A DNA stretch of 64,000 nt from Halobaculum rubrum (GTDB lineage: Archaea > Halobacteriota > Halobacteria > Halobacteriales > Haloferacaceae). Numbering within the stretch: position 1 is the first letter of the stretch; each line of letters starts with the position of its first letter. A program made the translations under genes and the position numbers. Shown piece after piece: positions 21,068 to 36,739 of the stretch. The notes beneath the pieces are model-generated. The model had not been told where the DNA came from, ran no database searches, and saw nothing but the letters and a program-made list of their open reading frames with translations. The stretch lies in contig NZ_CP082284.1 in the NCBI RefSeq assembly GCF_019880225.1, positions 248,001-312,000 of the forward strand, in the 5' to 3' direction.

Positions 21068-21663
21068 GCGATCCGGTCTATCTCGGGCTCGTCCGATTCC
21101 TCGAGCTTCTCTCGCGAGCGCTTGAACGAGAGGTATCCCGTGCCGACCGCCGCGCTCGCGGTGAGTGCTCCGGCGGTCGAATACGTCACCGTCGCCGCGC
21201 CCGCTTCGACCGAATCCGTCCGGAGCAACGCCGCGCCCTTCGCCGACGCGACCGTGATCGCATACGCCCCGTCAAACTCTACGGGCTCGAACGTGATCCG
21301 CGTCGTGTCGCTCCCGAGCGAGTAGCCCCGCGTGGGGATCTTCGTCGCCGTCGCCCCGCTTCCCTCGGTCATCGCCCGCATCACCGCTCCCGTGTCGGTG
21401 ATCTTGATGCTCGTTGGGTAGTCCGCTTCGAGTTCGAGCACGAAACTCCCGTCCGTGTACTCCCATGTCCGCACCTTCACCACCGGCCCGAGTTCGACCG
21501 CTATCTCCGGACCTTCTGGTGTGTCTGTCGGCGCCGTCTCGTTCGCTTCCTGCGCGCTCGCCGTTCCCGCTCCGGCGACCGTCGCGGCCGCTCCGCCGAG
21601 CGCCGCGAGCACTGTTCTCCGTGTCGTTCCCGTCGCTTCTGAGTTGTCGGTATTGTCGGTCAT
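21064..21663 (-). CDS. Tat-exported protein with C-terminal anchor
   Basis: A 199-residue protein, ATG at 21661-21663 (a TTG 6 bases earlier is in frame). The N-terminus has a twin-arginine signal (T-T-R-R-T-V-L-A-A-L-G-G-A-A) with an A-S-A cleavage-like site. The mature part is beta-rich; a hydrophobic stretch (A-G-A-L-T-A-S-A-A-V-G-T-G-Y-L) near the C-terminus followed by K-R-S-R-E-K would anchor it. It follows the spike-like gene and probably is a folded envelope protein. Confidence 0.75.
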   Translation of the reverse strand: MTDNTDNSEATGTTRRTVLAALGGAAATVAGAGTASAQEANETAPTDTPEGPEIAVELGPVVKVRTWEYTDGSFVLELEADYPTSIKITDTGAVMRAMTEGSGATATKIPTRGYSLGSDTTRITFEPVEFDGAYAITVASAKGAALLRTDSVEAGAATVTYSTAGALTASAAVGTGYLSFKRSREKLEESDEPEIDRIA

Positions 21664-21688
21664 GGTCAAGAAATGGGATCGCCGATAT

Positions 21689-23437
21689 CTAGCTCGGCGT
21701 CGTCACTTTGAGATACACGAGCCCGGCCACCGCGAGGATCGCCGCCGCCCCGCCGACGGATATCCCGAGCAGCGCCGCGAGCCTCTCAAAGAGCCCCTCG
21801 TTTGTCTCGGCGGCGCCGCCCGACGCCTTCGGTTCGCGACTCTCGATCTCCTCGCGGAGTTCGAGGATACGATTCATCTTTTCGAGTTGTTCACTCGTGT
21901 TGCTCGTCTTGTAGACGACTTTCTTGGTTGTCACCTCGTTTATTTGACCTCCTTCCTCATTGGTGATTGAGGAAACAGTGAACTCTCCAGAGAGTTCCGT
22001 AGTCTTACCACCAGTGTGGGCGAGTAGGACCGGTCCGGTGATGTTCGACGTGTTGTACGTGGTTCCAGCCTGCCACGAGCCATTCGGCGCGTTGCGCGCC
22101 ATCAGGAACCCGTTGTACGTCGCGCCCTTGTACTGGACTTCCATCGTCCCGGTCCCGTTGAGTTCCGGAGAATCGAGTCCCATGGATGAGAGCGCAGCCA
22201 CCACGTCGTAGGTGGAGTTCGTCCCGTCGACAGCCGACTGCCCGTAGCGGAACATCTGTGTGTTCCGACTCAGCACGTCAGCCGCGTCGATCTGTCCCGA
22301 CTCGTACGCTTGCCACGTGTTTTCAACGAAAACATCCACCTCGCTCTGCAGGGCGGAGTTTTGAGATTCAATCCGATCCCACCGATTTGCGTAATCGGCG
22401 AAGCGGATGTATGTCACCTGATCGTAATCAGAATTCGGCGGTTTGATCCGGAGGTAAGTCACATTCTGTCCGTGGTAGTAACTCCCCTCTTGAGTCTCGC
22501 CCTGCGCGGAAACCTGATTGACAGTTACAGAGTCGGTCCTCGTTCTGCCGTTCAGAGATTCCTTCTCTTTGAACCTGTACGCTTTCACACCGTGAGCGGT
22601 GCCGTTGGCAAGTGTGACAGACGTATCGACGGTGCCGATGAAGTACGAATTAGCCGAATTCGCATTCGTGTAGGCCGCACCGGCGTTAGCGTCGAGGACG
22701 TTTTCGGCAGTCAACGCAGATTCGTTCTGAGCGACGCCGAGCATCACATCAGCCGACTTCGCAGACGCATTGTAGGACTCGATGAGATTGATCTGCTTGA
22801 CAACGTAGTACTCCTGAATTGCCTGTTGCGCTTTGGACTTCGCTAGCGCCTTCGAAGAGCCGTTTTCATACGCTTGAGCGATCGCCATTTCTGCCTGCAT
22901 CCACGCGGCGGATTCGGTGTCGTTGAGGTAGTTGTCGTACACAGCGGATCGAGTCTCAGTCTCCGCTTTTTGCTGTAATCCGGAGTTGTAGATGTCGAGA
23001 TGCGTTTGATTAGCATCCGAATCTTGCATGTCCTCAATCGCCTGCGCGCGGTGCGAGTCGGTACACTTGCCATCGAACAGGAACTGATCGGTGGCGTAGC
23101 CGCCGAGGCCAAAGGAGAACGTCGCGAGCCGCTGTGTCTCCGAGCAGTCGTGCGTCGCGGACGCCGGTGCAACCGGCGACCCGGCGAACGGCGCCCCGAT
23201 CGCCGCCATCACGAGCAGCCCCACGACAAGCACGCCGCCAACCCGCTCGCGCCTCGGCGTGATCGAGGCGACGAGCCCGCGCAGATCAGCGTCGAGCCCG
23301 ACGCGAGCCATGACTATGACCAGCGCTGCGATAGAGAGGACGGTCGGAGCGATCCACTCGCCCCGGAGTGTCAGGAACCCGGCCGCCGCGAGCGATGCGA
23401 CGGCCGAGTATGTGAGCAGCAACCGATTCCAGATCAT
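21689..23437 (-). CDS. Spike-like membrane glycoprotein (VP4-type)
   Basis: A 582-residue protein with N-terminal membrane segments (three hydrophobic stretches in residues 5-95), a large exported domain rich in N-x-S/T sequons (for example Y-N-A-S, N-G-T-A, N-V-T-Y), two cysteines near residues 98 and 124, a coiled coil near the C-terminus (E-Q-L-E-K-M-N-R-I-L-E-L-R-E-E-I-E-S) and a final membrane helix. Coiled coil plus C-terminal anchor on a protein of this size is the pleolipovirus spike layout. The spike mediates receptor binding and fusion. Confidence 0.75.
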   Translation of the reverse strand: MIWNRLLLTYSAVASLAAAGFLTLRGEWIAPTVLSIAALVIVMARVGLDADLRGLVASITPRRERVGGVLVVGLLVMAAIGAPFAGSPVAPASATHDCSETQRLATFSFGLGGYATDQFLFDGKCTDSHRAQAIEDMQDSDANQTHLDIYNSGLQQKAETETRSAVYDNYLNDTESAAWMQAEMAIAQAYENGSSKALAKSKAQQAIQEYYVVKQINLIESYNASAKSADVMLGVAQNESALTAENVLDANAGAAYTNANSANSYFIGTVDTSVTLANGTAHGVKAYRFKEKESLNGRTRTDSVTVNQVSAQGETQEGSYYHGQNVTYLRIKPPNSDYDQVTYIRFADYANRWDRIESQNSALQSEVDVFVENTWQAYESGQIDAADVLSRNTQMFRYGQSAVDGTNSTYDVVAALSSMGLDSPELNGTGTMEVQYKGATYNGFLMARNAPNGSWQAGTTYNTSNITGPVLLAHTGGKTTELSGEFTVSSITNEEGGQINEVTTKKVVYKTSNTSEQLEKMNRILELREEIESREPKASGGAAETNEGLFERLAALLGISVGGAAAILAVAGLVYLKVTTPS

Positions 23438-23441
23438 CGGC

Positions 23442-23960
23442 TTACTCGTCTCCCTCCCGACCGAGCAGCACGTAGCCCCCGACGAGCACGATCGCGACGA
23501 GCCCGCCCGTTCCGATCGAGCCGAGCGACGAGCCGATCCCGCCCCCGCCGCCCGAGCCGGCGACCATCTGGATCGTCCCGACCTCTGCCGAGACGTTCGC
23601 CGTCGATGCGGTCGTGTTGTCCACGTGGACCATGACCTTGACCTGAGAGTACGCCGAGGCGTTCACGTCCGTGTACTCCACCAGCGACGTGTTCCCCGAG
23701 TCCACCGTCACGTTCCTAGTGTCCAGCGTTCCCGTTTCGTTGCCGTCCGCGTCGATCCCGACGAACTCCACCGTGAAGTTCGCCGATGTGTTCACGTCGC
23801 TAGTCGCGTTCAGGTCCGCGTACACACTCCGTGTATCGCCATCGACGGCGACCGTTTCGTTTGTGAGCTCAACATCGGCGGCGACCGCGCCGCCGGTCGC
23901 TCCGATCAGGCCGGCCGCCGCGACGAGCACGGCCGCCAGCAGCGCGAGCCCGCGCTTCAT
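23442..23960 (-). CDS. Secreted, C-terminally anchored envelope protein
   Basis: A 172-residue protein with a Sec signal peptide (K-R-G-L-A-L-L-A-A-V-L-V-A-A-A-G-L), an Asn/Thr-rich beta domain with several N-glycosylation sequons, a Gly-rich hinge and a C-terminal membrane helix (V-A-I-V-L-V-G-G-Y-V-L-L) ending in charged residues. It lies between the VP3-like genes and the spike gene. Overlaps the upstream gene by 4 bases. Confidence 0.75.
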   Translation of the reverse strand: MKRGLALLAAVLVAAAGLIGATGGAVAADVELTNETVAVDGDTRSVYADLNATSDVNTSANFTVEFVGIDADGNETGTLDTRNVTVDSGNTSLVEYTDVNASAYSQVKVMVHVDNTTASTANVSAEVGTIQMVAGSGGGGGIGSSLGSIGTGGLVAIVLVGGYVLLGREGDE

Positions 23961-24196
23961 GCGTCATTACCTCCGAGCACGTCGAGCCCGATGTTTCCCG
24001 CTAGCGACAGCGCGCCCGCGGCGCCGATCACGATGTAGACCAGCCCCGCCGACCCGGAACCGAGTAGTTCCGTAACGAGGTTCAGGTCGGCCGCTTCCAT
24101 CAGGCCCCAGTTGAGTGCGCCGAGCCCCGCCAGCAGCCACACTGTGACCTTGACCGCGGACTCGTCCGACTCGTAGGGGTTGCGAAGGTCGGCCAT
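23957..24196 (-). CDS. DUF378-like two-TM protein
   Basis: A 79-residue protein from ATG 24194-24196. Two membrane segments carry the pattern L-N-W-G-L-M-E-A-A-D-L-N-L-V-T-E-L-L-G and V-Y-I-V-I-G-A-A-G-A-L, which matches the small DUF378 family. Start overlaps the stop of the next upstream gene, so the two are coupled. Could be an envelope protein. Confidence 0.7.
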   Translation of the reverse strand: MADLRNPYESDESAVKVTVWLLAGLGALNWGLMEAADLNLVTELLGSGSAGLVYIVIGAAGALSLAGNIGLDVLGGNDA

Positions 24197-24609
24197 CAGC
24201 GCACCCACCCCAGTCCGATCTGTGCGACCGCCACGCCGAGGATGTAGAGCACGCCCCACAGGTCCGTACTCTGGAAGAACGAGGCAACGTCAGGGAACAG
24301 CACCCAGCCGACGAGCAGCGCCGCCGAGCCAAGCACGGCGTAGGCGTACACGTCGTCCATGTCCTCCTTCATCCGGTCGAGCCCGTCTGCGCTCAACAGG
24401 TCTGTGTGGTCGTTTGTGATCACGACCGCCGCGAACGTCCCGACCGTCACCAGCCACGCGATTGAACTCTCAATACCTGCGACTGTGAACGTATCAGACA
24501 TCGACACGCCGAACGCCGACACTGTCGCGATCCCGGTCATCACCGCGGCCGAGAAGATCGCGAGCACCAGCGCCCCGATGTCCTCCGCGTCAAATTCTTG
24601 GTATGCCAT
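24196..24609 (-). CDS. Four-TM protein (VP3-like internal membrane protein)
   Basis: A 137-residue protein from ATG 24607-24609. Four hydrophobic helices are visible (about 10-30, 45-65, 88-106 and 115-135), the topology of the VP3-type internal membrane protein that lines the pleolipovirus envelope. First gene of the long structural operon on the minus strand; all downstream genes overlap or nearly overlap. Confidence 0.7.
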
Positions 24610-24829
24610 GTTGTGAGTGTGAGTTCTACCAGGACGCCCGCCGCGTCGTCGGTTCGCTACTGTGCTCCACGTCCGTTGTAGGGGCGTCAGCCCCACCTTT
24701 GGCCTTCATAGGTACCTCGTCGGCCGACCACGGGCCGATACGGCCGCCGAACCCTCCCCCTCACAAATACCCTAACTTGAACAGCGGGTTCCCCTCAGGG
24801 GTTCCCCCCGGGGTACCCACCTCTCGGAC

Positions 24830-24847
24830 GGGGTTTTATCAAACCCC
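24830..24847. promoter_or_regulatory. Palindrome over the TATA region of the AbrB-like gene
   Basis: GGGGTTT-TATC-AAACCCC is a perfect inverted repeat whose centre lies about 26 bp before ATG 24865, the place of the TATA box of a leaderless haloarchaeal promoter. A repressor bound here would block TBP. It lies between the divergent structural operon and the small regulator-like gene, so autoregulation is a good guess. Confidence 0.55.
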
Positions 24848-24864
24848 GAGGGTAGCGCCCGGAT

Positions 24865-25146
24865 ATGCCCCACAGACGGCTACGGAAGATCGGGACCGAC
24901 TCCGTCGGGATCGTGCTGGAGCGGTCGGACTTTCTGGAGCGGGACGGGATCCTCGACGAGGACGGAGAACTCCCCGAGAACACTACCGCGTTCACCGAGC
25001 GGTTGGGAGAACGAACCTACCTCGTCCGCGTCCCCGAGAACGGACACGTTCCGGAACTACACGAGTGCGCACCGATTCGGCGGGTCGCCGGACAGCTCTA
25101 TCTGGAGAACACGACGGGCGGGGCGGAAGCGTCACGGGCGGATTGA
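24865..25146 (+). CDS. AbrB-like small DNA-binding protein candidate
   Basis: A 93-residue protein. The first 50 residues (R-K-I-G-T-D-S-V-G-I-V-L, then F-L-E-R-D-G-I-L-D-E-D-G-E-L) resemble the swapped-hairpin AbrB/SpoVT pattern of haloarchaeal proteins. It is divergent from the structural operon and preceded by a palindromic operator-like site. A regulator of the virion genes is inferred. Confidence 0.6.
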   Translation: MPHRRLRKIGTDSVGIVLERSDFLERDGILDEDGELPENTTAFTERLGERTYLVRVPENGHVPELHECAPIRRVAGQLYLENTTGGAEASRAD

Positions 25147-25167
25147 CCAAACGGGGAGGTCGAAAGT

Positions 25168-25710
25168 CTACGTTGTGCCTTTCGGGAATGCAACATGGGT
25201 AGAATAGTCCTCACTCACAATCACTCTGGTTCCGGTCGGCCATGTGAGTCGACGGATACTCGATAAGACATCGGAGTAAGACCCGATGATATTCTGGAAC
25301 AATCCCCAACCAAGGATCAGCTCCAAAGTCAGGTTCACACCACTCAAAAGGAGCAACAGAGAAGCCAGAGATAAGAGTTGAGGCGCAAGCAACATCGGGA
25401 GTATATGCTTTACTGGTAGGCTTTCTTCAGGCACATAAACCATAGTTGGCCACACATAGACGGGGTCGTATCCGAGCGCGGAAGCGGTGACATAGTGTAG
25501 AGATTCATGAATGAATATAAAGGAGACAAGCCCGATTCCAAAGCTCAGAACATACAGCTTTAGATCATTTGGAATAAGAATAATCGACTCTGAGAAGACC
25601 AGACCAACAGCAACTGCCAGTAACACCAGTCTTGCAACAAAGGTGGCCCACTTTGGGAGATTGTATTTTTTATACTCGGTATACCCATTTGGAGAGTCTA
25701 CCGTCGCCAT
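25168..25710 (-). CDS. DUF3267-like membrane metalloprotease
   Basis: A 180-residue protein with about four membrane helices. In the second helix it has H-E-S-L-H-Y-V, an HExxH zinc-protease motif as in DUF3267/site-2-protease-like small membrane proteins; a third ligand could be the N or D in the last helix region (N-I-I-G-S-Y-S-D). The gene is clearly AT-richer than its viral neighbours, so it may be a later acquisition. Confidence 0.7.
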   Translation of the reverse strand: MATVDSPNGYTEYKKYNLPKWATFVARLVLLAVAVGLVFSESIILIPNDLKLYVLSFGIGLVSFIFIHESLHYVTASALGYDPVYVWPTMVYVPEESLPVKHILPMLLAPQLLSLASLLLLLSGVNLTLELILGWGLFQNIIGSYSDVLSSIRRLTWPTGTRVIVSEDYSTHVAFPKGTT

Positions 25711-25767
25711 TCTTTGGCGTTTGCAACTATTTATTTCAGTATAAATTCACCTGTCGAGACGTTTTGA

Positions 25768-26031
25768 CTACCGCCACCGACTCTCGATACTCGTCCGATA
25801 GTACAACCCGAGAACGTCGGTATTCGCGATATCTTGGATCGTCCGCGGGTTGTATTCCTCCCTCGCGTCCTCGACGTTCCGCGCCGACTGGACGAGGTGG
25901 GTAAGCGCCGCGTCGATCACGTCGGACCGCGGAGGATCGTCGCCGTCGCCGGCCGCGACGATCCCGGCCGCTTGGTCCAGTAGTCGTTTCCGTTCGTCCG
26001 ACAGCCGCAGGGTCGTTCGTTCAGTCCCCAT
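25768..26031 (-). CDS. Small ribbon-helix-helix-like protein (DUF7386-like)
   Basis: An 87-residue protein. The start T-T-L-R-L-S-D-E-R-K-R-L-L-D resembles RHH-type regulators, then R-S-D-V-I-D-A-A-L-T-H-L-V-Q-S as the second helix. It is the last gene before the cargo region and has its own leaderless-type promoter. DNA binding is inferred. Confidence 0.65.
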   Translation of the reverse strand: MGTERTTLRLSDERKRLLDQAAGIVAAGDGDDPPRSDVIDAALTHLVQSARNVEDAREEYNPRTIQDIANTDVLGLYYRTSIESRWR

Positions 26032-26053
26032 ATCCGGCGGCTGACCTCCCCCC

Positions 26054-26060
26054 TTTATAA
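26054..26060 (-). promoter_or_regulatory. TATA box for the RHH-like gene
   Basis: TTATAAA on the minus strand lies 23 bp before the ATG at 26029-26031, the expected distance for a leaderless haloarchaeal transcript. Confidence 0.5.
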
Positions 26061-26213
26061 TCGCATGTATGAGCGGAGTCCGGATCGCGTCGATCTGGAG
26101 TCACCGGAGGGGTCCCGCATTATATACCCCCGGCCGCGCGGCCGCTCGGAGCTGCGGACTCGACGCGAGGGACCGTCCGGATGTATGCACGAGGACCCCC
26201 GCTCGCCTGGGGT

Positions 26214-26274
26214 GTGCATACGCTGGGTGTGCATACATCGCGGATCCCCGTGACATTGGCGCGCGACCCCGTGG
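26214..26274 (+). repeat. Cassette-border repeat R1
   Basis: Two GTGCATAC boxes 15 bp apart (26214 and 26229), then ATCGCGGATCCCC, then GTGACATTGGCG and GCGACCCCGTG. The same order and spacing is found at 30309 and 37591 and, degraded, at 34708. An inverted GTATGCAC also lies at 26183-26190. It sits in a 400-bp intergenic stretch (26032-26433) that otherwise holds only a short GC palindrome (around 26132-26143). Confidence 0.85.
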
Positions 26275-26433
26275 ATACGGAGCAAGACCACTCATCAAAG
26301 CCACTAGCGGTCTTACCACTCACTTTTCCTCCCTCATATTTGTAGAAATGGGTATGAGTGCCTCCACAGATTCCTCAGATGAATTATATTTGAAAACAAT
26401 AATGTAACCGGAAGATGGTTTTTGACTACTGGA

Positions 26434-29214
26434 ATGTCGGAGCCTCAATCACCACTGACTGATATCCCCGCTGTCGGAGCAACTCGTTCGAAGCGTCTCC
26501 AAGAGGCGGGATTTGCGACCATTTCCGACATTGGCGATGCAGAAACAAATGAACTGGCCAATGTCCCGGCGATAAACCCGGATATCGCACGCTGTGTCAG
26601 GCAGGGAGCTAGGGAGTTACGGGGTGATGATGACACGATTCAGAACCAGATAGCGACCGACTGCGGTGTGCCGAGAGAAGCAGTCGCCGAAGCGTTCGCC
26701 GAGATCGCTTATCGGGGAGGGTCGTTCGAGACTAAAAGAACCGCCCTCCGGGAGGTGTTCTGCAAGGCTAATGAGGAATCCATCCTGCACCTCAACGGAC
26801 ACTCGCTAAGATTTCTTTTTCTGCTGTACAACGCCGGCTTTCGTGATCTCGACGCCGTCGCGAGCGCCTCTCTCAGCGAGCTCATTAACGTAAGTTACTT
26901 CGATAAACAGCGGGCCCAAGAGGTCAGAGCAACCGCACGCAACGCGAAGGCCGACATGCGGGGGCGCTCCTCTGAGGAACAGTCGAGCGAGGAAGGCGTC
27001 GGGACGGAGTTCATCTGCGAGGAATGCGGCGAAACGTTCGAGTCCGAATCCCATATCCAACAGCACAGCCACCGCAATACCGAAGCTAAGGACGCATCTC
27101 GACAGTCCGACTCGAATCCGGGAGGTACGTCCTTCGAAACGTCACCACGCGTTACAAGGGATCAGGCGCAGAAACTCCTTGAAGAGAGCATCGGCCCCGA
27201 GGCCGAGTTCCGGCCACAGCAACGGGAGGCCATCAGCAGACTGGTTAACCAGAAGGAACGCCTATTTATCGTCCAGCGAACGGGGTGGGGGAAGAGCACC
27301 GTTTACTTTATTGCGACACGGTTGCTCCGAGACCAAGGTTCAGGGCCGACCCTCATCATCAGTCCACTCCTATCGCTGATGCGAAATCAAATCTCGAATG
27401 CCGAACAGCACCTGAACCTCAACGCAATCACCATCAACTCCAACAATGAAGGGGAATGGGACGAGGCCAAAAGGGCGGTGATCGAGGGGAACTGCGATTT
27501 GCTGCTTATATCACCTGAACGACTCGCGAATCCGGAATTCCGGCAGGATGTCCTCAACGAGATGGAGCAGGGATTCGGGATGCTCGTCATCGACGAGGCC
27601 CACTGTATCTCCGACTGGGGCCACGACTTCCGCCCTGACTATCGGCGTATCAAGCGCATCATCAAACGGTTGCCGGAGAATATCCCGGTCGCTGCAACGA
27701 CCGCGACGGCGAACGACCGGGTGGTCGAGGACGTTACCACACAACTCCCAGACCTAAACCCGATTCGCGGCACGCTTGTCCGCGACTCACTCAAAATCCA
27801 GACAATCAACCTGGGCTCCCGGGAAAGGCGCCTGGCGTGGCTAGCCGAAAACGTGACCGAAACCCCAGTCTCCGGCATCATCTACTGTCTCACCACCAAT
27901 GAGGTCGAACAAGTCGCCGACTGGTTAACCGACCAGGGCCTCGACGTCCTCCCGTATCACGGGCGGCTCGACAACGAAGTCCGCCGAGAGCGCGAACAGA
28001 AGCTCCTGGACAACGAAGTCGACGCTCTGGTCGCGACCAACGCGCTCGGAATGGGATTCGACAAACCTGATCTCGGCTTCGTCATCCACTTCCAGCGTCC
28101 ACCTAACCTCATCCGATACTATCAAGAAATCGGACGTGCCGGGCGAGACATCGACGAGGCGTACGCCATCCTCCTTTCTGGCGAAGAAGACGACGACATC
28201 GCCGAGTACTTCATCGAGAGCGCATTTCCGGAGCCCGAGGATTTCGAGAGCGTGCTCTCGACAATCGGGACGAGCGACGGGCCAGTTTATCGCCGCGCGA
28301 TCCTGAGACGGACGGACATCAGCTGGAGGCGGATGAACAAGTGCCTCGATATCCTCCAGGTGGAGGGAGCCATCAGCAGGGAGGATGAGGGCTATGTGAG
28401 AACTGCAAACTCGTGGCAGTACGACTACGAGCGGTTCGAGCAGGTTACAGAACGGCGTTGGGAAGAGCTCGAACGAATTAAAGAGTTTGTCAGAACGGAT
28501 GAGTGCCTCACCCAGTTCGTTGATGACGAACTCGACGGGGACCTGGAAGAGCCCTGCGGGCACTGTGCGAACTGCGCCGGCAACTTCCTCCCATCCGCCG
28601 TTCAGAACGAGGAGTTGATTCAGGAGGCAATTGAGCACTACCAAAGCGAGGGATGGAACGTGATCGAGCCCCGAAAGCAGCGGCACAAACAAGGTGGCGG
28701 TCGCGAACGAATCCCTGAGAGGGTACGCATGGAGGCTGGTCGGGCACTGTGTGTCTGGGACGACCCCGGCTGGGGAACGGACGTTCGGGAAGGCAAGTAC
28801 GAACAGGGCCGCTTCGGCGACGATCTCGTCGAGGCAGCCGCCGCGTTCATCCGTGAGGAATGGAATCCATCCCCGGAGCCGAAGTGGATTGCAGCTGTGC
28901 CCTCGACATCGACCGAAGGAGTGGTCACCGACTTCGCCAGCCGGCTGGCAGAGAAGTTGGACATTCCATTTATCGATCGCATCAAGAAGGTGGAGAACAC
29001 GCGTCCTCAGAAGGACATGGAAAACTCGTACCAGAAGTGCTGGAACGTCGAGGGGGCGTTCAATACAACCGACGAAGTCCGCGGCGATGCAGTCCTTCTC
29101 GTCGACGACGTAGTTGCATCCAAGTGGACGTTGACAGAGACAGCAAAGGAGCTTCGCTTGGCCGGAAGTGGGCCGGTATATCCCTTCGCCTTAGCCAAGC
29201 GCCGAGGCGGGTAA
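26434..29214 (+). CDS. RecQ-family helicase fused to a phosphoribosyltransferase-like domain
   Basis: A 926-residue protein from ATG 26434 (a TTG 12 bases earlier is in frame). Order: helix-hairpin-helix-like segments (residues 1-170, two repeats), a C2H2 zinc finger (F-I-C-E-E-C-G-E-T-F ending H-S-H-R, about 190-215), a RecQ helicase core with unusual Walker A R-T-G-W-G-K-S-T, D-E-A-H box and helicase C domain (G-M-G-F-D-K-P-D; R-P-P-N-L-I-R-Y-Y-Q-E-I-G-R-A-G-R), a zinc cluster C-G-H-C-A-N-C, and a ComF/PRTase-like C-terminus with V-L-L-V-D-D-V-V-A-S-K-W-T. Paired with the DprA-like gene 6 bp downstream; defence or DNA-uptake processing is the likely job. Confidence 0.85.
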   Translation: MSEPQSPLTDIPAVGATRSKRLQEAGFATISDIGDAETNELANVPAINPDIARCVRQGARELRGDDDTIQNQIATDCGVPREAVAEAFAEIAYRGGSFETKRTALREVFCKANEESILHLNGHSLRFLFLLYNAGFRDLDAVASASLSELINVSYFDKQRAQEVRATARNAKADMRGRSSEEQSSEEGVGTEFICEECGETFESESHIQQHSHRNTEAKDASRQSDSNPGGTSFETSPRVTRDQAQKLLEESIGPEAEFRPQQREAISRLVNQKERLFIVQRTGWGKSTVYFIATRLLRDQGSGPTLIISPLLSLMRNQISNAEQHLNLNAITINSNNEGEWDEAKRAVIEGNCDLLLISPERLANPEFRQDVLNEMEQGFGMLVIDEAHCISDWGHDFRPDYRRIKRIIKRLPENIPVAATTATANDRVVEDVTTQLPDLNPIRGTLVRDSLKIQTINLGSRERRLAWLAENVTETPVSGIIYCLTTNEVEQVADWLTDQGLDVLPYHGRLDNEVRREREQKLLDNEVDALVATNALGMGFDKPDLGFVIHFQRPPNLIRYYQEIGRAGRDIDEAYAILLSGEEDDDIAEYFIESAFPEPEDFESVLSTIGTSDGPVYRRAILRRTDISWRRMNKCLDILQVEGAISREDEGYVRTANSWQYDYERFEQVTERRWEELERIKEFVRTDECLTQFVDDELDGDLEEPCGHCANCAGNFLPSAVQNEELIQEAIEHYQSEGWNVIEPRKQRHKQGGGRERIPERVRMEAGRALCVWDDPGWGTDVREGKYEQGRFGDDLVEAAAAFIREEWNPSPEPKWIAAVPSTSTEGVVTDFASRLAEKLDIPFIDRIKKVENTRPQKDMENSYQKCWNVEGAFNTTDEVRGDAVLLVDDVVASKWTLTETAKELRLAGSGPVYPFALAKRRGG

Positions 29215-29220
29215 GTCCAA

Positions 29221-30282
29221 ATGGAGCAACCCGACCTCTCCCGTGATAGCCATGTGGTCCTCCTCCTTGCCTCCCACCTCGGAGGGGAACCAGATGGCGA
29301 GGGCTCGGATAGCGGCCTCGGGCCGGCTGGCTGGCAGGATTTCGCCACCAACGTCGCCGACTCCTCCCTCGACTCGCCCGGTTCACTGCTAGAACTGGAA
29401 CCAGACGAGTGGCCCACGGACATCTGGACGAATCAAGCCAATCGAGAGTGGGTGACACAGCGACTCGGTCGATCGACGCGTTTAGCGATGTCACTTGAAG
29501 ATCTCAACAATCGGGGCATTTGGGTTACGACTGTCTACGAGCCATCGTATCCATCTCGGCTTGCTGAAAACCTCGGTCGAAAGGTACCACCATTCCTCTA
29601 CGTGGCTGGCGAGGAAGAACACCTCTCGACTACTGCGGTCGGATTCGTCGGGTCCCGGGACGCAGACGAGACCGATCGAGGCCACACTCGCCGACTGGTC
29701 GAGAAGGTGAGCGACGATGGATTTGGGATTGTCTCGGGTGGTGCGAAGGGAATCGACGAAACGTCCGAAAAGACAGGATTGGAGTACGGTGGCCCTGTAA
29801 TTGAGTTTCCCGCGGAGGGGATTCATCACTGCCTCCAAGATGGGACCATCCGAGATGCGGTGATGGAAGGCCAGATGACACTCGCCTCGCACTACCATCC
29901 GCGTGCATCATGGAACGTTGGGGCGGCGATGGGACGGAACAAGCTGATTCATGGCTTCGGGAAGTATACAGTCGTCGTGCGGTCCGGAGACGAAACTGGG
30001 GGGACGTGGGAGGGTTCAATCGAGAATCTCAAGCACGGATGGTCGCCACTCCTCGTCTGCAAGGATGACGACACACCCCCGGGAAATGAGGCCTTAATCA
30101 AAGAGGGTGGAATACCGATCGACCCGACTACAATCCCAAAAGAGGAATCGCTTGACGAGTGGATAAGTGCGCAAAGGCAGAACGTATCTGATTCGGTCGG
30201 GCATGACGACCGGCCAACGCGCTCAGTCGACGAAATAAATTTGCCGAACGACACGCAGTCCTCCCTCAACGACTTCGAGTAG
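29221..30282 (+). CDS. DprA/Smf-like DNA-processing protein
   Basis: A 353-residue protein with a DprA-type Rossmann fold: F-V-G-S-R-D-A-D (about 143-150), S-G-G-A-K-G-I-D (about 175-182), and T-G-G-T-W-E-G in place of the usual S-G-T. DprA loads RecA on single-stranded DNA in bacteria; stand-alone DprA-like proteins also occur in defence loci. The N-terminal 100 residues are not conserved DprA sequence. Starts 6 bp after the helicase gene stop, so one operon. Confidence 0.8.
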   Translation: MEQPDLSRDSHVVLLLASHLGGEPDGEGSDSGLGPAGWQDFATNVADSSLDSPGSLLELEPDEWPTDIWTNQANREWVTQRLGRSTRLAMSLEDLNNRGIWVTTVYEPSYPSRLAENLGRKVPPFLYVAGEEEHLSTTAVGFVGSRDADETDRGHTRRLVEKVSDDGFGIVSGGAKGIDETSEKTGLEYGGPVIEFPAEGIHHCLQDGTIRDAVMEGQMTLASHYHPRASWNVGAAMGRNKLIHGFGKYTVVVRSGDETGGTWEGSIENLKHGWSPLLVCKDDDTPPGNEALIKEGGIPIDPTTIPKEESLDEWISAQRQNVSDSVGHDDRPTRSVDEINLPNDTQSSLNDFE

Positions 30283-30308
30283 TTCAACACCGGTCATGTA
30301 CTTCTTGT

Positions 30309-30370
30309 GGGCATACACTGGGCGTGCATATATCGCGGATTCCCGTGACATTGGCGTGCGACCCCGTGGG
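30309..30370 (+). repeat. Cassette-border repeat R2
   Basis: GGGCATAC then GTGCATAT 15 bp apart, ATCGCGGATTCCC, then GTGACATTGGCG and TGCGACCCCGTG. It starts 27 bp after the DprA-like gene and lies before the EVE-like gene. Apart from it, the stretch 30283-30589 shows only a TATA-like TACTATACTC at about 30557. Confidence 0.85.
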
Positions 30371-30589
30371 TTCACTTATTGATCCCTCACCACAGGACTA
30401 TAGGCCGTTAGGCTTGTTGAAGGCCTTCGCAGGAGATAGATCCTAGCCGCCGTGCTGAATAGAGGACGCGAATCGGTTATGCAGATCCAATGACCCACAA
30501 AAATCTTGACGCGGTCTCATACGTACTATGGCCACCCAAGACTTATTTGGGAGGCTACTATACTCATGAGACGGGTTCCAAGATTACCT

Positions 30590-31189
30590 ATGACCAAAGA
30601 CGAAGAACAGGAACGAGAACGAATAACGACCACCATCAGTCCAAAAACTAAGATGAACCTCAAAGAGGGAGAAGGGGCGATGGGCGTACAGATCGATAGA
30701 TTGGTTAACAACGGGTCTGAGATGGATTTCCACATCGTCAATACAAATGCTCAACATCTCAATGACGACGGTGCGAAAATCTATCAAGCAGGGAAAGTCG
30801 TAACATACGGCCCCGAGAAATTTGAAAAGAAGCTGAATAACATCAACCCAGGTGATGGGGTTTTCTCTTATGTTAGCAAGGGGGAAGTGAATTATCCAGG
30901 AGGATTCAAAGCCTTCGGGATCGCTCGCGCACCATACGACGGGGTTCCAACTGAAGGAGATGCAAGGATTTACCCGAACGACGGTCACGAATATGAGTAT
31001 CACGTCCCCGTTACTTGGCTAGCAGTCCTTCCGGACAATCGGACGGTTACAGTTCCCGAGAAACGCCGATTTGTCGGTGAACAACCCACGGACACGAAAA
31101 TAAAGGCCCGCGACCAAGAGCTTCGTCAGGGATGCCGGCTACTTGCTGAGGTTATGCTCGGGCGATCCGGCTATCCACTAACCTGGTAG
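30590..31189 (+). CDS. EVE/PUA-like domain protein (tentative)
   Basis: A 199-residue protein taken from ATG 30590; the frame is open to 30506. After a polar N-terminus, the segment G-D-G-V-F-S-Y-V-S-K-G, F-K-A-F-G-I-A-R-A, then Y-E-Y-H-V-P-V-T-W resembles the EVE fold (PUA superfamily), which reads modified bases in DNA or RNA and occurs in defence proteins. Similarity is by pattern only. AT-richer than the polymerase genes that follow. Confidence 0.45.
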   Translation: MTKDEEQERERITTTISPKTKMNLKEGEGAMGVQIDRLVNNGSEMDFHIVNTNAQHLNDDGAKIYQAGKVVTYGPEKFEKKLNNINPGDGVFSYVSKGEVNYPGGFKAFGIARAPYDGVPTEGDARIYPNDGHEYEYHVPVTWLAVLPDNRTVTVPEKRRFVGEQPTDTKIKARDQELRQGCRLLAEVMLGRSGYPLTW

Positions 31190-31432
31190 CCATCTGCTGA
31201 ATAGATTCTCTGTATCCCGCATGCCGATCCTATCAGTTTTTGAGGTTTCAACAGAACCGGAGCGTTCACTTACACATCGGAATCATCATTGATGGGATAA
31301 ACGGGGGTTGCTGAGATGATCGCAGGACAGCACTGCTTTTGATCCCTCAATCAGCACCGTCATTTGGCCGTGTTTTACTTCCACTGAGCATGGACGGCTC
31401 GCGACTATTGTCCAGTAGTCTACCCATGAAGT

Positions 31433-32185
31433 ATGCAACGCGACTGGTCGAACGGTGGGGTCGAGCTACCGTCACTCCAGCCGGGAGTAACGCTACTCGA
31501 TATCGACTCGTCCCTTGGCGTCGAACCGCTGTGTGCGGTCGTCCTCGATCATTTGCTCGGGGAGTCCGGTCGGGCGTTTTGGGTTGACGCCGGCGGACAC
31601 GCTCGAACCCGAACGCTTCACCGGCTCGCTCCCCATTCGAGATACCTCGACCGGATTACGGTCGGGCGGGGGTTCACCGCCTATCAGCACGCTTCTCTAC
31701 TGGATCGACTCCCGCGGATCGTCTCGAATAGTGCCCTCGATAGGGAGCCGCCAGCCCTTGTCGTTGTGCCGGGCATGGACCGACTTTATCGAGACGACGA
31801 TATCCCTCGCGAACAAGCGCGGGATCTCCTCGTTCGCCGACTCGCGACGCTCGCTGCTATCGCTCGGGAACGCGAGGTCCCCGTAGTCCTCACCCGGTCA
31901 CGTGAGGACGAATTGAGCGAGCCGCTCGTGGCCGCCGCTCGCGAGACACTGACCTGTGAGGCAACGAAATTCGGACCGCGGTTCACCGACGAGGAGGGTG
32001 AAGACGAGACGTTGGTCTACCACCTCGGTGACGGCTGGATGCAAACCACGCTCGCGTTCTGGCAGGAAATCCTCCAACACCGTGCCCGTGCTGCCGGCGC
32101 TCTGGTCGACGAGGACGGTCCCGCGGCGGACACACCAGGTAACGTCCCGAGCCCATCCACACCCGTGACCCCGGAGGGATGGTGA
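31433..32185 (+). CDS. RecA/RadA-like protein lacking Walker A
   Basis: A 250-residue protein with the strand order of a RecA-like core: T-L-L-D-I-D where the P-loop should begin, then L-C-A-V-V-L-D-H-L-L, G-R-A-F-W-V-D-A-G-G, and a Walker-B-like strand A-L-V-V-V-P-G-M-D-R-L-Y. No G-x4-G-K-S/T is present, so ATP hydrolysis is unlikely. The C-terminus is Pro-rich. It overlaps the next gene by 7 bases and is two genes before the polymerase, recalling bacterial ImuA, a RecA-like partner of mutagenic polymerases. Confidence 0.65.
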   Translation: MQRDWSNGGVELPSLQPGVTLLDIDSSLGVEPLCAVVLDHLLGESGRAFWVDAGGHARTRTLHRLAPHSRYLDRITVGRGFTAYQHASLLDRLPRIVSNSALDREPPALVVVPGMDRLYRDDDIPREQARDLLVRRLATLAAIAREREVPVVLTRSREDELSEPLVAAARETLTCEATKFGPRFTDEEGEDETLVYHLGDGWMQTTLAFWQEILQHRARAAGALVDEDGPAADTPGNVPSPSTPVTPEGW

Positions 32186-32505
32186 CTGTGGGCCGGACGA
32201 ACCCGACGTTCCGCGATATTCTCTCGCGGATGGAAGACGAGTGGGGCGACTTCCGGCGTGCGCTCCGTCGACGACACCAACCGCTATTCGATCGGCTCTG
32301 GACCTACGCCAGAGAGCACGCCGACGCGGCGGGGAATCTCAACCATCCCGACCGACTCGCTCCCGTGCTCGTGAGTATCGACATCGAACAGGAGGACCGG
32401 ATCGACGAACTCGAACGCCGCGTCTCGGAACTGGAGGCGGAGGTTTCGGACGAGGAGTCAACGGCGGACCGATCCTCCGAGGTGGCCGCCACCGACGACG
32501 AATAG
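32179..32505 (+). CDS. DUF8156-like small protein with C-terminal coiled coil
   Basis: A 108-residue protein. Its N-terminus (G-R-T-N-P-T-F-R-D-I-L, then Y-A-R-E-H-A-D-A-A-G-N-L-N-H) is typical of the haloarchaeal DUF8156 family; the C-terminus has a coiled coil (I-D-E-L-E-R-R-V-S-E-L-E-A-E) and an acidic tail. Start at ATG 32179, or GTG 32188 which gives the usual M-G-R-T-N start. Sits between RecA-like and polymerase genes in one operon. Confidence 0.75.
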   Translation: MVTVGRTNPTFRDILSRMEDEWGDFRRALRRRHQPLFDRLWTYAREHADAAGNLNHPDRLAPVLVSIDIEQEDRIDELERRVSELEAEVSDEESTADRSSEVAATDDE

Positions 32506-32511
32506 CCCCAG

Positions 32512-34719
32512 ATGGTACTCGCGATAGACTACGACAACGATTCCGTTACCGAATGGCGACTTACAGCGGACGGAGTGGAGCGGACAGTCGTCGACGACTA
32601 CCGGCCTACTCTGTTCGTCGGATCCCCAGTCTCCGAGCTATACGGCCGGGACGGCGGCCCGAACCCGGAGCCGAAGCTGGCGAGACGCGGCGCTATCCCT
32701 GAATCACTTCGTGACCTCCGGTCGTTCCTCGACGGACAAGACGCGGTCGCGGATCTGACGATCGACGTGTGGCGGCAGACGTTCCGGTCGAGCGCGCGGC
32801 CGGTCCTCCGTGTTGATTGTCGACGGATCGAGGACATCCGATCGGTCGCGCGCCGGATCCACCAATTCGGAGATCCCGACGCCTATACCTGCTACAACGT
32901 CGATCTCACGCGGCAATTACGCTACACCCTCGAAACCGATACCGAGGCGGCCCCCGATACCTCGATTCGGGACCTCCGCACTCTCCGTATCCAGTTCCCG
33001 GCTCACGAGTCGGATCACTCGGCGCTGAGTCAGCTCCGGGTCAACGGAGAACAAGTCGGGTCTTCCCCACGAGAGGTCGTGGAGGCCGTCGAACAGCGCG
33101 TTTCATCTGTCGATCCCGATGTTCTAATCGTCGATACGGCCCGCGTGGTTCCGTTGCTGTTCGAGGCGGCCGCGGAATACGGGCTGGAGCCGTATTCACT
33201 CGGGCGTGAATTCGGATACACACAGTTGGCCTCGGAGTCGACGTACACGAGCTACGGGAAGGTCGGTCACTCCCCGGCACGGTACTCCGTTCCCGGACGG
33301 GTCATTCTGGACCGTGCAAACACGTTCTTCTACGGCGAATCAGGGCTTGACGGGTGTCTAGACTTGGTTGAGCGTGCGGGCTTACCGTTGCAGGAACTCG
33401 GGTGGGCGTCGATTGGGCGCGTGCTGACGGCCATGCAAATCCGCGAGGCGCGGTCTCGGGGCGTCCTCGTCCCCTGGCGGGCATGGCGTCCCGAGTTCTT
33501 CCGTTCCGCCTCGACGCTGGACACCGCTGATCGAGGCGGAACGACGCTCGCGCCGGAGGTCGGCGTTCACGAGGACGTCCACGAACTCGACTTCGCGTCG
33601 ATGTACCCGAACATCATCCGCGAGTACAACATCTCGCCGGAGACGGTCCGTTGTGGCTGTTGTGACAACGATGCGGTCCCGAAGATCGGCTACTCCATCT
33701 GCGAGCGAGACGGCTATCTCCCGGACGTTCTCGGGCCACTCATCGACGGGCGGAGCGATATCAAACGGCGGATCCGCGAGACGAACGATCCCGATGAACG
33801 GGCGACGCTGGAGGCCCGTTCCTCCGCGATCAAGTGGATTCTCGTGTCTTGCTTCGGATATCAGGGGTTCTCGAACGCCAAGTTCGGGCGTATCGAGTGC
33901 CACGAGTCGATCAACGCCTTCGCTCGCGAGATCCTACTGGATGCGAAAGCCGCACTCGAAGAAGGTGGCTGGCGTGTGCTTCACGGGATCGTTGATTCGA
34001 TCTGGGTGACGCCCGCACCCGAGGTCGCCGAGAGCGACAGACGGTCGCTCGACGACATCGCCGCGGAGGTGTCCGGGGAGACACAGATCGAGTTGGAGTA
34101 TGAGGGTGCGTTCGACTGGGTCGCGTTCTGTCCACGTCGCGGCGGCGACGGCGGGGCACTGACACGGTACTTCGGCCGGCGACGGGGCGTCGAGTATCCC
34201 GACGACGGGCTCGGAGACGCGGTGAAGACACGCGGGATCGAGTCGCGACAGGACGACACCCCGGCATGGATCGCGCAGCTCCAGTCGACGCTGATTCGGA
34301 CCCTCGACCGGACCCACGACGTGGAGGCGGTCGTGTCGAAACTCGCGTCGGCGCTCGGTCGACTGGAGCGCGAGGAGCTCCCGCCGACGGACCTTCTCAT
34401 CACACAGCGCGTGTCGAAGCGGGCCGAACAGTACCGTCACGAGACGGTGACGGTCGCCGCGCTCAAGCGCGCGAAGTGGAAGAACTGTGCGTTAGCGCCG
34501 GGACAGCGCGTCGAGTATCTGGTGTTCGACGACGCCGCCCACGGGCTGGGGCGGGTCCGGTTAAGTCACGAGGAGTTGCGGTCCTACGATACCGGCTGGT
34601 ATCGCAAGCAAGCGATCCGGGCCGCCGAAAGTGTGTTGTCACCGCTCGGGTGGGACCGTGAGCGGATCCGGCGGTCCCTGTCGGGGTATTCGGACAGCCG
34701 ACTTTCGGCATACGAATAG
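32512..34719 (+). CDS. Family-B DNA polymerase, exonuclease-inactivated
   Basis: A 735-residue family-B polymerase. Motif A is L-D-F-A-S-M-Y-P-N-I (about residue 360), motif B is K-W-I-L-V-S-C-F-G-Y-Q-G (about 441), motif C is G-I-V-D-S-I-W-V (about 493), with the catalytic Asp kept but the usual first Asp of D-T-D-S replaced. In the exonuclease domain the D-I-E site reads R-I-Q and the N-x3-F-D site reads D-T-A-R-V-V within D-P-D-V-L-I-V, so proofreading should be lost. It is the end of a three-gene operon and its last codons overlap repeat R3. A translesion or repair role fits better than replication. Confidence 0.85.
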   Translation: MVLAIDYDNDSVTEWRLTADGVERTVVDDYRPTLFVGSPVSELYGRDGGPNPEPKLARRGAIPESLRDLRSFLDGQDAVADLTIDVWRQTFRSSARPVLRVDCRRIEDIRSVARRIHQFGDPDAYTCYNVDLTRQLRYTLETDTEAAPDTSIRDLRTLRIQFPAHESDHSALSQLRVNGEQVGSSPREVVEAVEQRVSSVDPDVLIVDTARVVPLLFEAAAEYGLEPYSLGREFGYTQLASESTYTSYGKVGHSPARYSVPGRVILDRANTFFYGESGLDGCLDLVERAGLPLQELGWASIGRVLTAMQIREARSRGVLVPWRAWRPEFFRSASTLDTADRGGTTLAPEVGVHEDVHELDFASMYPNIIREYNISPETVRCGCCDNDAVPKIGYSICERDGYLPDVLGPLIDGRSDIKRRIRETNDPDERATLEARSSAIKWILVSCFGYQGFSNAKFGRIECHESINAFAREILLDAKAALEEGGWRVLHGIVDSIWVTPAPEVAESDRRSLDDIAAEVSGETQIELEYEGAFDWVAFCPRRGGDGGALTRYFGRRRGVEYPDDGLGDAVKTRGIESRQDDTPAWIAQLQSTLIRTLDRTHDVEAVVSKLASALGRLEREELPPTDLLITQRVSKRAEQYRHETVTVAALKRAKWKNCALAPGQRVEYLVFDDAAHGLGRVRLSHEELRSYDTGWYRKQAIRAAESVLSPLGWDRERIRRSLSGYSDSRLSAYE

Positions 34720-34757
34720 AATGTGTGCATATCGAAGTTCTTCGTGACATTGGCGCG
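34708..34757 (+). repeat. Cassette-border repeat R3 (degenerate)
   Basis: GGCATAC overlaps the last codons of the polymerase gene, then GTGCATATCGAAG, then CGTGACATTGGCGCG. The spacing between the boxes is 19 instead of 15, two bases are missing after the second box, and the GACCCCGTG tail is lost. Same orientation as R1, R2 and R4. Confidence 0.7.
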
Positions 34758-34822
34758 TAGGGTCGGGAGTATGAGACTCATGACCTGGTACGAACAACAC
34801 GTGAGCGTGTAGGACTAGAAGA

Positions 34823-34975
34823 GTGCGAGCCGTGTGGCCCCAGCCGTGGGCGCGGGCCGCTGGGGTCGGGCACAAGACCGAGGTGACGGCGGTGGTGCAC
34901 GTGCCCACCGGCGCGATGGTGTCTCTGCCGCCGGAGCTATCGCTGGAGGAATTCTTGGCTGCAATTGAGGTCTGA
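34823..34975 (+). CDS. 50-residue small protein candidate
   Basis: A short frame with GTG start and the plausible C-terminal half V-T-A-V-V-H-V-P-T-G-A-M-V-S-L-P-P-E-L followed by E-E-F-L-A-A-I-E. This looks like a strand-turn-helix of a small haloarchaeal protein rather than random frame. GC-rich, between R3 and an AT-richer stretch. No family recognised. Confidence 0.4.
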   Translation: MRAVWPQPWARAAGVGHKTEVTAVVHVPTGAMVSLPPELSLEEFLAAIEV

Positions 34976-34991
34976 GAGGACCGCTGTCAGT

Positions 34992-35309
34992 ATGTGGACA
35001 AAGTACTTACCTGTCAATCAGGTGGGTGCCAGTATGCCCTCGCTGGGTTCCCTGAGTCCCAAAACACTCCTTGCACTGGGGTGTGCTGTGTTCGCCGCAA
35101 TCACGATCGGGATGCCACTGTCGAGTGCACGGAACGAAGCGGCGGCGCCGCTCCTTGGTAAATGCCCCGCTGCCTTAGGAATCTTGGCGTCTGAGCCCAG
35201 CTTAGGTTCGCTTCAAGCGTTCATTGGCTGCTCGGTTGGGGCAATGATACTAGTGGGAATCACGGGAACCTTGGGTGTAGGTCTGACCGTATTCAAATCC
35301 ATGAGATAG
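34992..35309 (+). CDS. Small two-TM membrane protein
   Basis: A 105-residue protein from ATG 34992. Two hydrophobic helices (L-L-A-L-G-C-A-V-F-A-A-I-T-I-G and I-G-C-S-V-G-A-M-I-L-V-G-I-T-G) with four cysteines in total, one pair of which (C-P-A-A-L-G and I-G-C) could face outside. No known family. Small membrane proteins next to defence genes may be effectors, but nothing here proves that. Confidence 0.5.
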   Translation: MWTKYLPVNQVGASMPSLGSLSPKTLLALGCAVFAAITIGMPLSSARNEAAAPLLGKCPAALGILASEPSLGSLQAFIGCSVGAMILVGITGTLGVGLTVFKSMR

Positions 35310-35405
35310 TCTAGCAGATTTCAAAAACCACAAGATCTCATATAATTGGATATCAAGATAGGCTCATCGGAACACGATGTCATTCTATTTCCAAGCTAAA
35401 TATTT

Positions 35406-36739
35406 CTACTCTGAGAAAACTTCCCTCAACAAAGCTATCTCCATATCATAAAGAGTATGTTTGAACTTGTCTCTCTTATGTACTCTCGTACCTTCTTCAT
35501 CAACGTACTGTTGTGCCGATTTCAACGCTGAGGCGACTTGCGGAATCTTATCCAGTATCTCCGCTTTCGATGCAGTCCCTAAGTCAATACTGACAGACGT
35601 GTCATCAAAAGCTACACGATGCTTCCGTTCGTTCATCAGGAAATCAGCTCTGTTCACGGCTGAGTTAGAGATCTTCGATTGCATCGTCTCAATCTTACCA
35701 GATGTCCCAAATCCACTCAGTGAAGTACTCTCAATGAACTGTTCATATTCATCTCTATCTCCCCTCATAAATAACAGCTCACAGGCTGTCTTGGAATTAC
35801 TGGCTTTACGGCCGATATTTGAGAGTGTTTCTAAGATACTTGGGTATTCTGCAAGTTCAATCCAGTATGATCCTGTAAGGCCGTACTCAATAGACGATGC
35901 CACTAGAAACTCTGCAGCCTCATCGTCAATATTCAATTCAGAAGACCGATTATAATAACTCCACAGAGGGTGTCGAGCGATACGGTATGACGGCCTTTGA
36001 CGCCATAGACTTATCTCGCTATTTAATTCTTCATCGCCTGTCGTAGGTGCGGTTCTAGTGAACTTCTGCTCCACTGCTACCCCCGAATCAGGATCTTCTG
36101 CAACGGGAACTCCACCGGTCGCAACCTGCTTCTTCATAGCATCAATGACCTCAGGGCCTAACTCCACGGCTTTATGAACGGAATCGAGAATGTCTTCTCG
36201 ATACTTCTCAATTCGATATTGTAGCATCTCCTCAACGTCTTCCCTGTTTGCGATTTTTTCCCCGAGCCAGATCTAAGATAGATCTCTCCGTTTCTCAGAT
36301 GTGTCGTGCTATCTTCTTGGATTTCCTTGCTGACTACCGCGGGAGGCTCAGCTACCTGTGATATTTGAATGGCAGCGAACCTTTTCCCATCATTCTCGAA
36401 TGTATGAATCGAGAAGTCAGGACTAGGCGAGAGATGGCTGGTTACTGTCTCTTGTAAGTTTGATTCGTCCATGTCGAACAAGTGCTTTCTACTATCACCT
36501 TCGTCACCTACCTTGCTTTCTGTGATACCAATGAGGTCACCCCCGTCGGTTACACCTACCAGAATGTATCGGGGAGACCTTGTGTGGACCGTGTTTGCAA
36601 TAGAGGCGATATCCTTGATGAATTCGGCTTTCTGATAGAGGACGCCACCAACGAAATAGTCCTCTTTGAAATCAATCCAATCCTGCTCATCAGCTCCTAC
36701 TTCAGTTAGCAGTTCGGTGAAGTCTTCCTTATTCATCAA
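35406..36739 (-). pseudogene. AlbA_2/Schlafen-like protein gene with a frameshift
   Basis: Two overlapping minus-strand frames make one protein of about 443 residues. Part 1 (36158-36739) has the AlbA_2 domain: W-I-D-F-K-E-D-Y, I-A-S-I-A-N-T, Y-I-L-V-G-V-T-D-G-G, and I-Y-L-R-S-G-S-G. There the frame changes; part 2 (35406-36227 frame) would continue G-E-K-I-A-N-R-E-D-V-E-E-M-L-Q-Y-R-I. One base is missing at a homopolymer (T6C4 at 36254-36263 on the plus strand). It may be a sequencing error, real decay, or programmed frameshifting. Family members are often nucleases or regulators in defence loci. Both copies of the element beyond the window would be needed to test it. Confidence 0.7.

Follow-up and report, generated by a model that had tools for sequence, protein, structure and literature searches.

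Toxin-antitoxin systems in which a DprA homologue acts as the antitoxin include shosTA, psyrTA (printed as syrTA), and rqlHI (Rousset et al. 2022, PMC9122126). RqlHI of extraintestinal Escherichia coli has been described by experiment (Russell and Mulvey 2015, PMC4670107): RqlH is toxic without RqlI, its phosphoribosyltransferase (PRTase) domain is required for toxicity, and its helicase domain helps restrain the PRTase. The two proteins interact, and rqlH lies upstream of rqlI wherever both occur. Mutation of K49, D148, and D663 alters the effects of RqlH, and D663A abolishes growth inhibition and SOS induction (PMC4670107). Coupling of a helicase-PRTase with DprA was also described by Iyer et al. 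2017 (PMC5512222), and PsyrTA of Pseudomonas syringae by Sberro 2013 (as cited in PMC8790059 and PMC9122126). Here, we analyzed a helicase-PRTase gene followed by a DprA-like gene in the haloarchaeon Halobaculum rubrum, within a stretch of 64,000 nucleotides (the window: contig NZ_CP082284.1, positions 248,001 to 312,000). Our favored explanation, to which we give a probability of about 0.72 as a whole, is that a betapleolipovirus-like provirus carries a haloarchaeal PsyrTA toxin-antitoxin module among its cargo.

Identity of the gene pair

The pair and its parts are the following (window positions; aa, amino acids; HhH, helix-hairpin-helix; AF2, AlphaFold 2):

26434..29214, plus strand: PsyrT/RqlH homologue (putative toxin) with HhH module, RecQ-like helicase, and PRTase, 926 aa; from PADLOC PsyrT and identity to E. 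coli RqlH
26455..26946, plus strand: double HhH module, aa ~8-171; PF14520 in two stretches, helical in the AF2 model
27010..27072, plus strand: doubtful C2H2-like finger (C195, C198, H211, H213); PF00096, E 0.06
27277..27297, plus strand: Walker A RTGWGKS with K287 (= RqlH K49); family-wide motif, alignment mapping
28591..29196, plus strand: PRTase domain, motif LLVDDVVASKWT, with D892 (= RqlH D663); Pribosyltran 5e-5, mapping
29221..30282, plus strand: PsyrA/RqlI homologue (DprA-like putative antitoxin), 353 aa; from PADLOC PsyrA, AF2, and Foldseek

The helicase-PRTase gene is an uninterrupted open reading frame (ORF) with an ATG start at 26434, and the DprA-like ORF follows on the same strand after a 6-bp gap. 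PADLOC matched the first protein to PsyrT (E 2e-263, aa 242-924, profile positions 5-685 of 689) and the second to PsyrA (E 7e-84, aa 6-319, profile positions 3-310 of 398). In PsyrT, Pfam found DEAD (9e-25), Helicase_C (2e-18), and HHH_5 (3e-10), with Pribosyltran just below its curated cut-off and a weak RecQ zinc-binding match; the protein was above the cut-off of TIGR00614 recQ_fam (NCBIfam). With these matches and this spacing, the view of a first-pass annotation of the window, a helicase with HhH-like repeats and a PRTase end in a two-gene operon with DprA, holds. The AF2 model of PsyrT was mediocre (predicted local distance difference test, pLDDT, 71.6; predicted template modeling score, pTM, 0.49). 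Its top Foldseek matches in the PDB were BLM/RecQ catalytic cores, and the PRTase domain matched adenine PRTases in the PDB at E 0.008.

PsyrT was 45% identical to E. coli RqlH across 688 residues. The alignment placed K287, D387, and D892 of PsyrT on K49, D148, and D663 of RqlH, so that all three residues are kept. We checked the RqlH numbering against the rqlHI genes on the chromosomes of two E. coli strains. In both, the lysine is at position 49, the DEAH aspartate at position 148, and the first residue of the DIVD motif at position 663, which, for the second Asp of the pair DD, agrees with the numbering of the paper. The Walker A, previously called altered, carries the signature of the family: (R/K)TGWGKS was present in nearly all homologues examined, and the Walker lysine is kept as K287. 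Since the same domain set and motif are those of a family, the composition of helicase-PRTase plus DprA is not due to chance and belongs to that family.

The DprA-like protein matched DNA_processg_A in Pfam (1e-28) and gave a confident AF2 model (pLDDT 90.4). Its best Foldseek matches in the PDB were DprA of Rhodopseudomonas and Streptococcus (3maj, 3uqz) and ShosA of E. coli (8zva). In a tree of 61 DprAs (a careful run, against a quick one for the PsyrT cores), it grouped with PsyrA, apart from 15 haloarchaeal ShosA-like rows (support 100/99); its exact place is unsure because its long branch joins a long Clostridium branch.

Overall, the window holds a gene for a RecQ-like superfamily 2 (SF2) helicase core joined to a C-terminal PRTase (slightly under the Pfam cut-off) and, directly downstream on the same strand, a DprA-like gene that groups with PsyrA. 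That this pair is a haloarchaeal PsyrTA (RqlHI) module is close to certain. The first-pass annotation knew of no named and experimentally described system of this composition, but PsyrTA/RqlHI is one (PADLOC; PMC4670107). The system at this locus is of a kind already known, found here in a new host setting and with an N-terminal addition of haloarchaeal type, and it is less surprising than that annotation held. Particular to the window system are the HhH module, the DprA partner, and the provirus carrier in tRNA-Ile.

Compared with RqlHI, the pair shares the gene order, the close spacing, the RecQ-like helicase with a C-terminal PRTase, the DprA-like partner, and the three conserved residues. 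It differs in four respects: E. coli RqlH has no HhH module at its N-terminus; its gene overlaps that of RqlI, whereas the window genes are separated; in the two strains the E. coli pair sits on the chromosome, flanked by gntU and yhgN, whereas the window pair lies in a provirus; and the window protein has Ala at the last DIVD position. Likeness to PsyrTA of P. syringae rests on the PADLOC PsyrT and PsyrA profiles; by contrast, window PsyrT has 241 extra N-terminal residues, window PsyrA is shorter, and the host is an archaeal provirus.

ShosTA (a ComF-like PRTase plus DprA) also places a DprA-like antitoxin beside a PRTase, and ShosA structures are among the closest PDB relatives of the window DprA. 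However, ShosTA has no helicase, and the haloarchaeal ShosA-like DprAs form a clade separate from the window DprA. We therefore rejected ShosTA as the identity of the pair: its PRTase is fused to a helicase and its DprA falls outside the ShosA-like clade. As a side observation, those 15 other haloarchaeal DprA-like genes (L052-L064, L066, L067) form one clade and look like ShosTA pairs in haloarchaea, since a PRTase-like ORF lies just upstream in 12 of them.

The N-terminal extension of PsyrT

The N-terminal module consists of two HhH units joined by a helical stretch (Pfam, AF2 model). It lies outside the PsyrT profile, and in a phmmer search (E <= 1e-3) it headed PsyrT in none of 78 non-haloarchaeal loci. 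The same search found it at the head of PsyrT in six of 23 other haloarchaeal loci (L040, L047-L050, and L230 (1e-33)). When the window genome was searched with a model of the module, full-length matches were found only in the two PsyrT copies; eight other matches were partial, mostly to a single HhH. Judging by the HhH fold, the module may sense DNA structure. In L050 (1-18000), PsyrT is interrupted, and the gene downstream of it bears a similar double HhH module, as if the module circulated between proteins of such islands.

The first-pass annotation also gave the helicase a eukaryote-like C2H2 zinc finger. Such fingers have the spacing C-x2-4-C-x12-H-x3-5-H. The candidate stretch (aa 193-213) scored 14.3 bits against a PF00096 cut-off of 25.2 and covered profile positions 1-19 of 23. 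Its Cys-x2-Cys-x12-His part is present, but the next His comes one residue on (His-x1-His) and the last His of the profile is missing. Moreover, zf-C2H2 at E 0.1 had no match in the other 17 rows of an 18-row homologue alignment, and the pLDDT of the region was mostly below 50. We rejected C2H2 as a defining domain, as it is below the cut-off and not conserved.

The carrier provirus and its cargo

The element that surrounds the pair has these features:

13406..13481, plus strand: tRNA-Ile (GAT), integration target; ARAGORN
13468..49937, no strand: integrated betapleolipovirus-like provirus, 36,470 bp, first of two identical tandem copies; exact repeat
14053..15723, plus strand: HGPV-1 ORF14-like regulator; 48%, 5e-146, phrog_3288
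18821..20119, minus strand: pleolipovirus ATPase (HGPV-1 ORF7); 60% over 88%
21689..23437, minus strand: pleolipovirus VP4-like spike; 43% over 70% of the query, HRPV-1 VP4
31433-32185: Rad51-like gene, downstream of the pair
32512..34719, plus strand: family B DNA polymerase (cargo or replication gene); PF00136 4e-26
38451..40133, plus strand: N4/N6 DNA methyltransferase (cargo); PF01555 2e-34, PADLOC MTase_II
40257..43234, plus strand: McrB-like AAA ATPase and McrC-like gene (cargo); PF07728 2e-20, PF10117 5e-30
43761..44774, plus strand: Orc1/Cdc6-like protein, SNJ2 type; 35%, 2e-49 to SNJ2 gp8
47327..47620, plus strand: SNJ2 recombination accessory protein homologue; 62%, 1e-33
48826..49878, plus strand: SNJ2-type integrase, adjoining the right end; 46% to SNJ2 integrase, 1e-97

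The attachment core is the 3' end of the tRNA-Ile, found at 13468, 49938, and 86408 (repeat CCGTGTTGGCCCAT). The second copy (49938-86407) runs past the window end to C1:334407, with 0 mismatches over 36,470 bp; it may be a true tandem duplicate or else an assembly product of an excised circle. By tblastn with SNJ2 and HGPV-1 proteins, the element contains homologues of the integrase, accessory protein, Orc1/Cdc6, VP2, VP3, VP4, ORF5, ORF6, ORF7, ORF9, and ORF14. Judged from its sequence, with a spike, ATPase, and ORF5/ORF6 cluster plus integrase and attachment repeats, the carrier is a provirus of betapleolipovirus-like type, with a size about double that of SNJ2.

It shares with SNJ2 and HGPV-1 homologues of the integrase, accessory protein, Orc1/Cdc6, spike, ATPase, and regulator, but measures 36.5 kb against their 17.0 and 9.7 kb and has ~18 kb of cargo with PsyrTA, the polymerase, the methyltransferase, and McrBC. 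The stretch from the virion cluster to Orc1/Cdc6 contains PsyrTA, the Rad51-like and family B polymerase genes, a Schlafen AlbA_2 gene, a resolvase, the methyltransferase, and the McrB-/McrC-like genes. The window thus presents a pleolipovirus-like provirus whose cargo includes several defense-type genes. Pleolipovirus HHPV4 is described as encoding a restriction enzyme, HHPV4I. Among the papers listed on pleolipoviruses and defense systems, no toxin-antitoxin cargo of this kind appears in the opening parts of the abstracts, and the words 'toxin', 'defense', and 'restriction' are absent from the main text of a 2023 survey of the pleolipovirus family. Judged by title, none of the papers found to name PsyrTA is about haloarchaea.

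The neighborhood of the pair bears on two other explanations. The helicase, DprA, Rad51-like protein, and polymerase could serve the replication or recombination of the element itself, given that the last two genes lie just downstream of the pair and that a polymerase homologue lies ~1.7 kb downstream of PsyrT in L048. However, this neighborhood does not recur in other clustered loci, the annotations of SNJ2 and HGPV-1 have no such genes, and a PRTase helicase followed by DprA is the order of the bacterial toxin-antitoxin pair. We regard a replication set as very unlikely. The second explanation is competence-like DNA uptake: ComF-like PRTases and DprA occur in bacterial transformation, a parallel noted by Iyer et al. 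(PMC5512222). Yet the pair sits inside a provirus, the scanned genes of the element include no other uptake gene, and Russell and Mulvey, who weighed DNA uptake for RqlHI, detected no transformation (PMC4670107). We give uptake hardly any credence. Of the role in handling foreign DNA proposed by the first-pass annotation, the link of a conserved operon to mobile elements and conflict stands, while the uptake side is disfavored by the provirus location and by the lack of detected transformation.

Directly after the pair, a 227-aa ORF (30506-31189) had no Pfam or PHROGs match and a marginal PADLOC match to PDC-S11 (E 0.007). By eye, we take it to recall EVE/PUA-like proteins.

Distribution, partner linkage, and mode of action

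PsyrT is rare in haloarchaea. With a threshold of E <= 1e-100, it was present in 19 of 391 genomes of the class (window genome included); for two other families, the numbers were 8 of 146 and 4 of 125 genomes. In its own family, 10 of 170 genomes had it at the looser E <= 1e-60 (class and family sets overlap). No match was found in the 10 same-genus genomes among those listed. The 23 other haloarchaeal loci (20 plus 3 later ones) include a pair that nearly duplicate each other and two interrupted by stops. Mobile traits occur among them: L043 has SNJ2-type integrases, L232 an accessory protein, and L048 a related polymerase, and the Halanaeroarchaeum locus is on a plasmid.

For a quick IQ-TREE of 99 PsyrT cores, we excluded by name five rows that were interrupted, duplicated, or cut. 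In this tree, the window and 19 haloarchaeal rows formed one group (SH-like approximate likelihood ratio test, SH-aLRT, 100; no bootstrap). The window lies near the base of that group and is its only DprA-linked row. The simplest reading is that the pair was inherited and that the sampled sister lineages lost the DprA partner; alternatively, the window lineage may have gained DprA. Elsewhere in the phylum, PsyrA at E <= 1e-38 was found in 9 further archaeal genomes of 392, and 6 of these 9 loci had PsyrT next to it; the other contigs were short or cut.

On viral contigs, only two of 61 PsyrT relatives reach the PRTase end (L169 and L170, 45-46% identity), L171 and L172 being partial; L169 bears a PsyrT plus DprA pair. 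Close relatives of the window DprA were not found on viral contigs. A phage collection gave 20 records for PsyrT, none covering 80% of the query, and among the 15 matches listed the likeness was to the helicase part only, mostly in unannotated Listeria records. We also observed, on E. coli plasmid NZ_OX030731.1 (L235, 35852-40960), a PsyrTA pair that separates the S gene of a type I restriction system from its R gene.

Several results weigh against a toxin-antitoxin module with a defensive or addictive role. Using phmmer with the window DprA (E <= 1e-4), we found DprA in the examined stretch of none of the 23 other haloarchaeal PsyrT loci (in L049 this comprised only 782 bp downstream). The search was not blind, since every bacterial PsyrA apart from one truncated case matched at E 1e-31 or better. 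The non-haloarchaeal loci, an uneven sample of 78 taken from the best 80 of at least 588 matches (two of the 80 being haloarchaeal), had DprA in 37; the 41 without it came from actinobacteria (38), Planctomycetes (two), and Chloroflexi (one contig, with 1 kb of room). The constant DprA linkage that the first-pass annotation proposed to check is thus not seen, and the picture matches that of Russell and Mulvey (PMC4670107). As the 23 other haloarchaeal homologues and 38 of 41 actinobacterial ones have no adjacent DprA, PsyrT need not be toxic on its own. In PsyrT, Ala895 stands in place of the last Asp of the RqlH DIVD, a residue changed in the four-residue mutant of RqlH; this position is variable, with Asp in 61 of 78 tallied non-haloarchaeal motifs and Gly, Asp, Asn, or Ala among 20 haloarchaeal ones (three haloarchaeal entries, two of them from one genome, yielded no motif). 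Finally, PsyrTA overexpressed in its native host NILS69 gave no detectable protection, and the expressing strain had a growth defect (PMC12409345).

Part of this evidence would fit a RecQ-type helicase for DNA repair or maintenance, with the PRTase and DprA tuning the processing of single-stranded DNA (ssDNA) and toxicity a by-product of an unbalanced pair. The solo relatives (23 of 23 and 41 of 78 loci) and the NILS69 result point that way, and Russell and Mulvey themselves propose an undefined beneficial DNA function (PMC4670107). Against it, PsyrT is patchy as well as rare in haloarchaea, and the window copy lies on a provirus beside restriction genes. We consider repair rather unlikely. 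The first-pass annotation held that its proposal would be refuted by homologues that are ordinary chromosomal repair genes without DprA and without mobile context: homologues without DprA exist, but the window copy is inside a provirus.

For a PsyrTA module as provirus cargo, the support comes from the PADLOC matches, the conservation of the RqlH residues, the grouping of DprA with PsyrA, and the provirus context. The methyltransferase and McrBC-like genes of the same cargo, the viral pair of L169, the E. coli pair inside a type I restriction operon, and the HHPV4 restriction enzyme are also consistent with it. The cargo position suggests that the pair protects or maintains the virus in its host. 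While identity is near certain, we rate the most likely mode of action (abortive infection or addiction, by a PRTase toxin restrained by DprA) at only about even odds because of the missing protection in NILS69 (PMC12409345).

By analogy with E. coli, the PRTase would be a genotoxic effector, presumably using phosphoribosyl pyrophosphate (PRPP), that attacks DNA or nucleotides, and the helicase part would help restrain it. The DprA-like partner may bind the helicase protein and keep the PRTase off, serving as sensor and safety catch. Replication of a rival virus could be the trigger, if ssDNA or odd DNA structures draw DprA away or engage the HhH or helicase part; alternatively, loss of the provirus could be. 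The freed toxin would stop the cell, and both triggers would favor the resident provirus.

A quite unlikely extension is a rewired family, in which HhH on PsyrT would be a DNA-structure sensor with which the provirus aborts rivals and DprA the safety catch, while sister lineages would have dropped DprA, some with an ADP-ribosylglycohydrolase as antidote. If true, the PRTase reaction would leave a ribosyl mark removable by that enzyme.

These results extend to a haloarchaeon a toxin-antitoxin family known from bacteria. The window system is useful because it offers, on a provirus, a PsyrT copy that has its DprA, and many relatives without DprA are available for comparison in tractable archaea, which gives one setting to ask when the partner is needed.

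As a separate observation, an ADP-ribosylglycohydrolase gene was found in the stretch of six of the 23 DprA-free haloarchaeal loci, and in none of the three later haloarchaeal loci or the bacterial ones. Hand arithmetic gave an expectation of ~0.1 loci (20 PF03747 matches in 21 whole genomes) against the six observed, for an association spotted post hoc and with several of the loci related. The gene is directly downstream in L033 and L034, upstream and divergent in L049 and L050, and farther away in L032 and L038.

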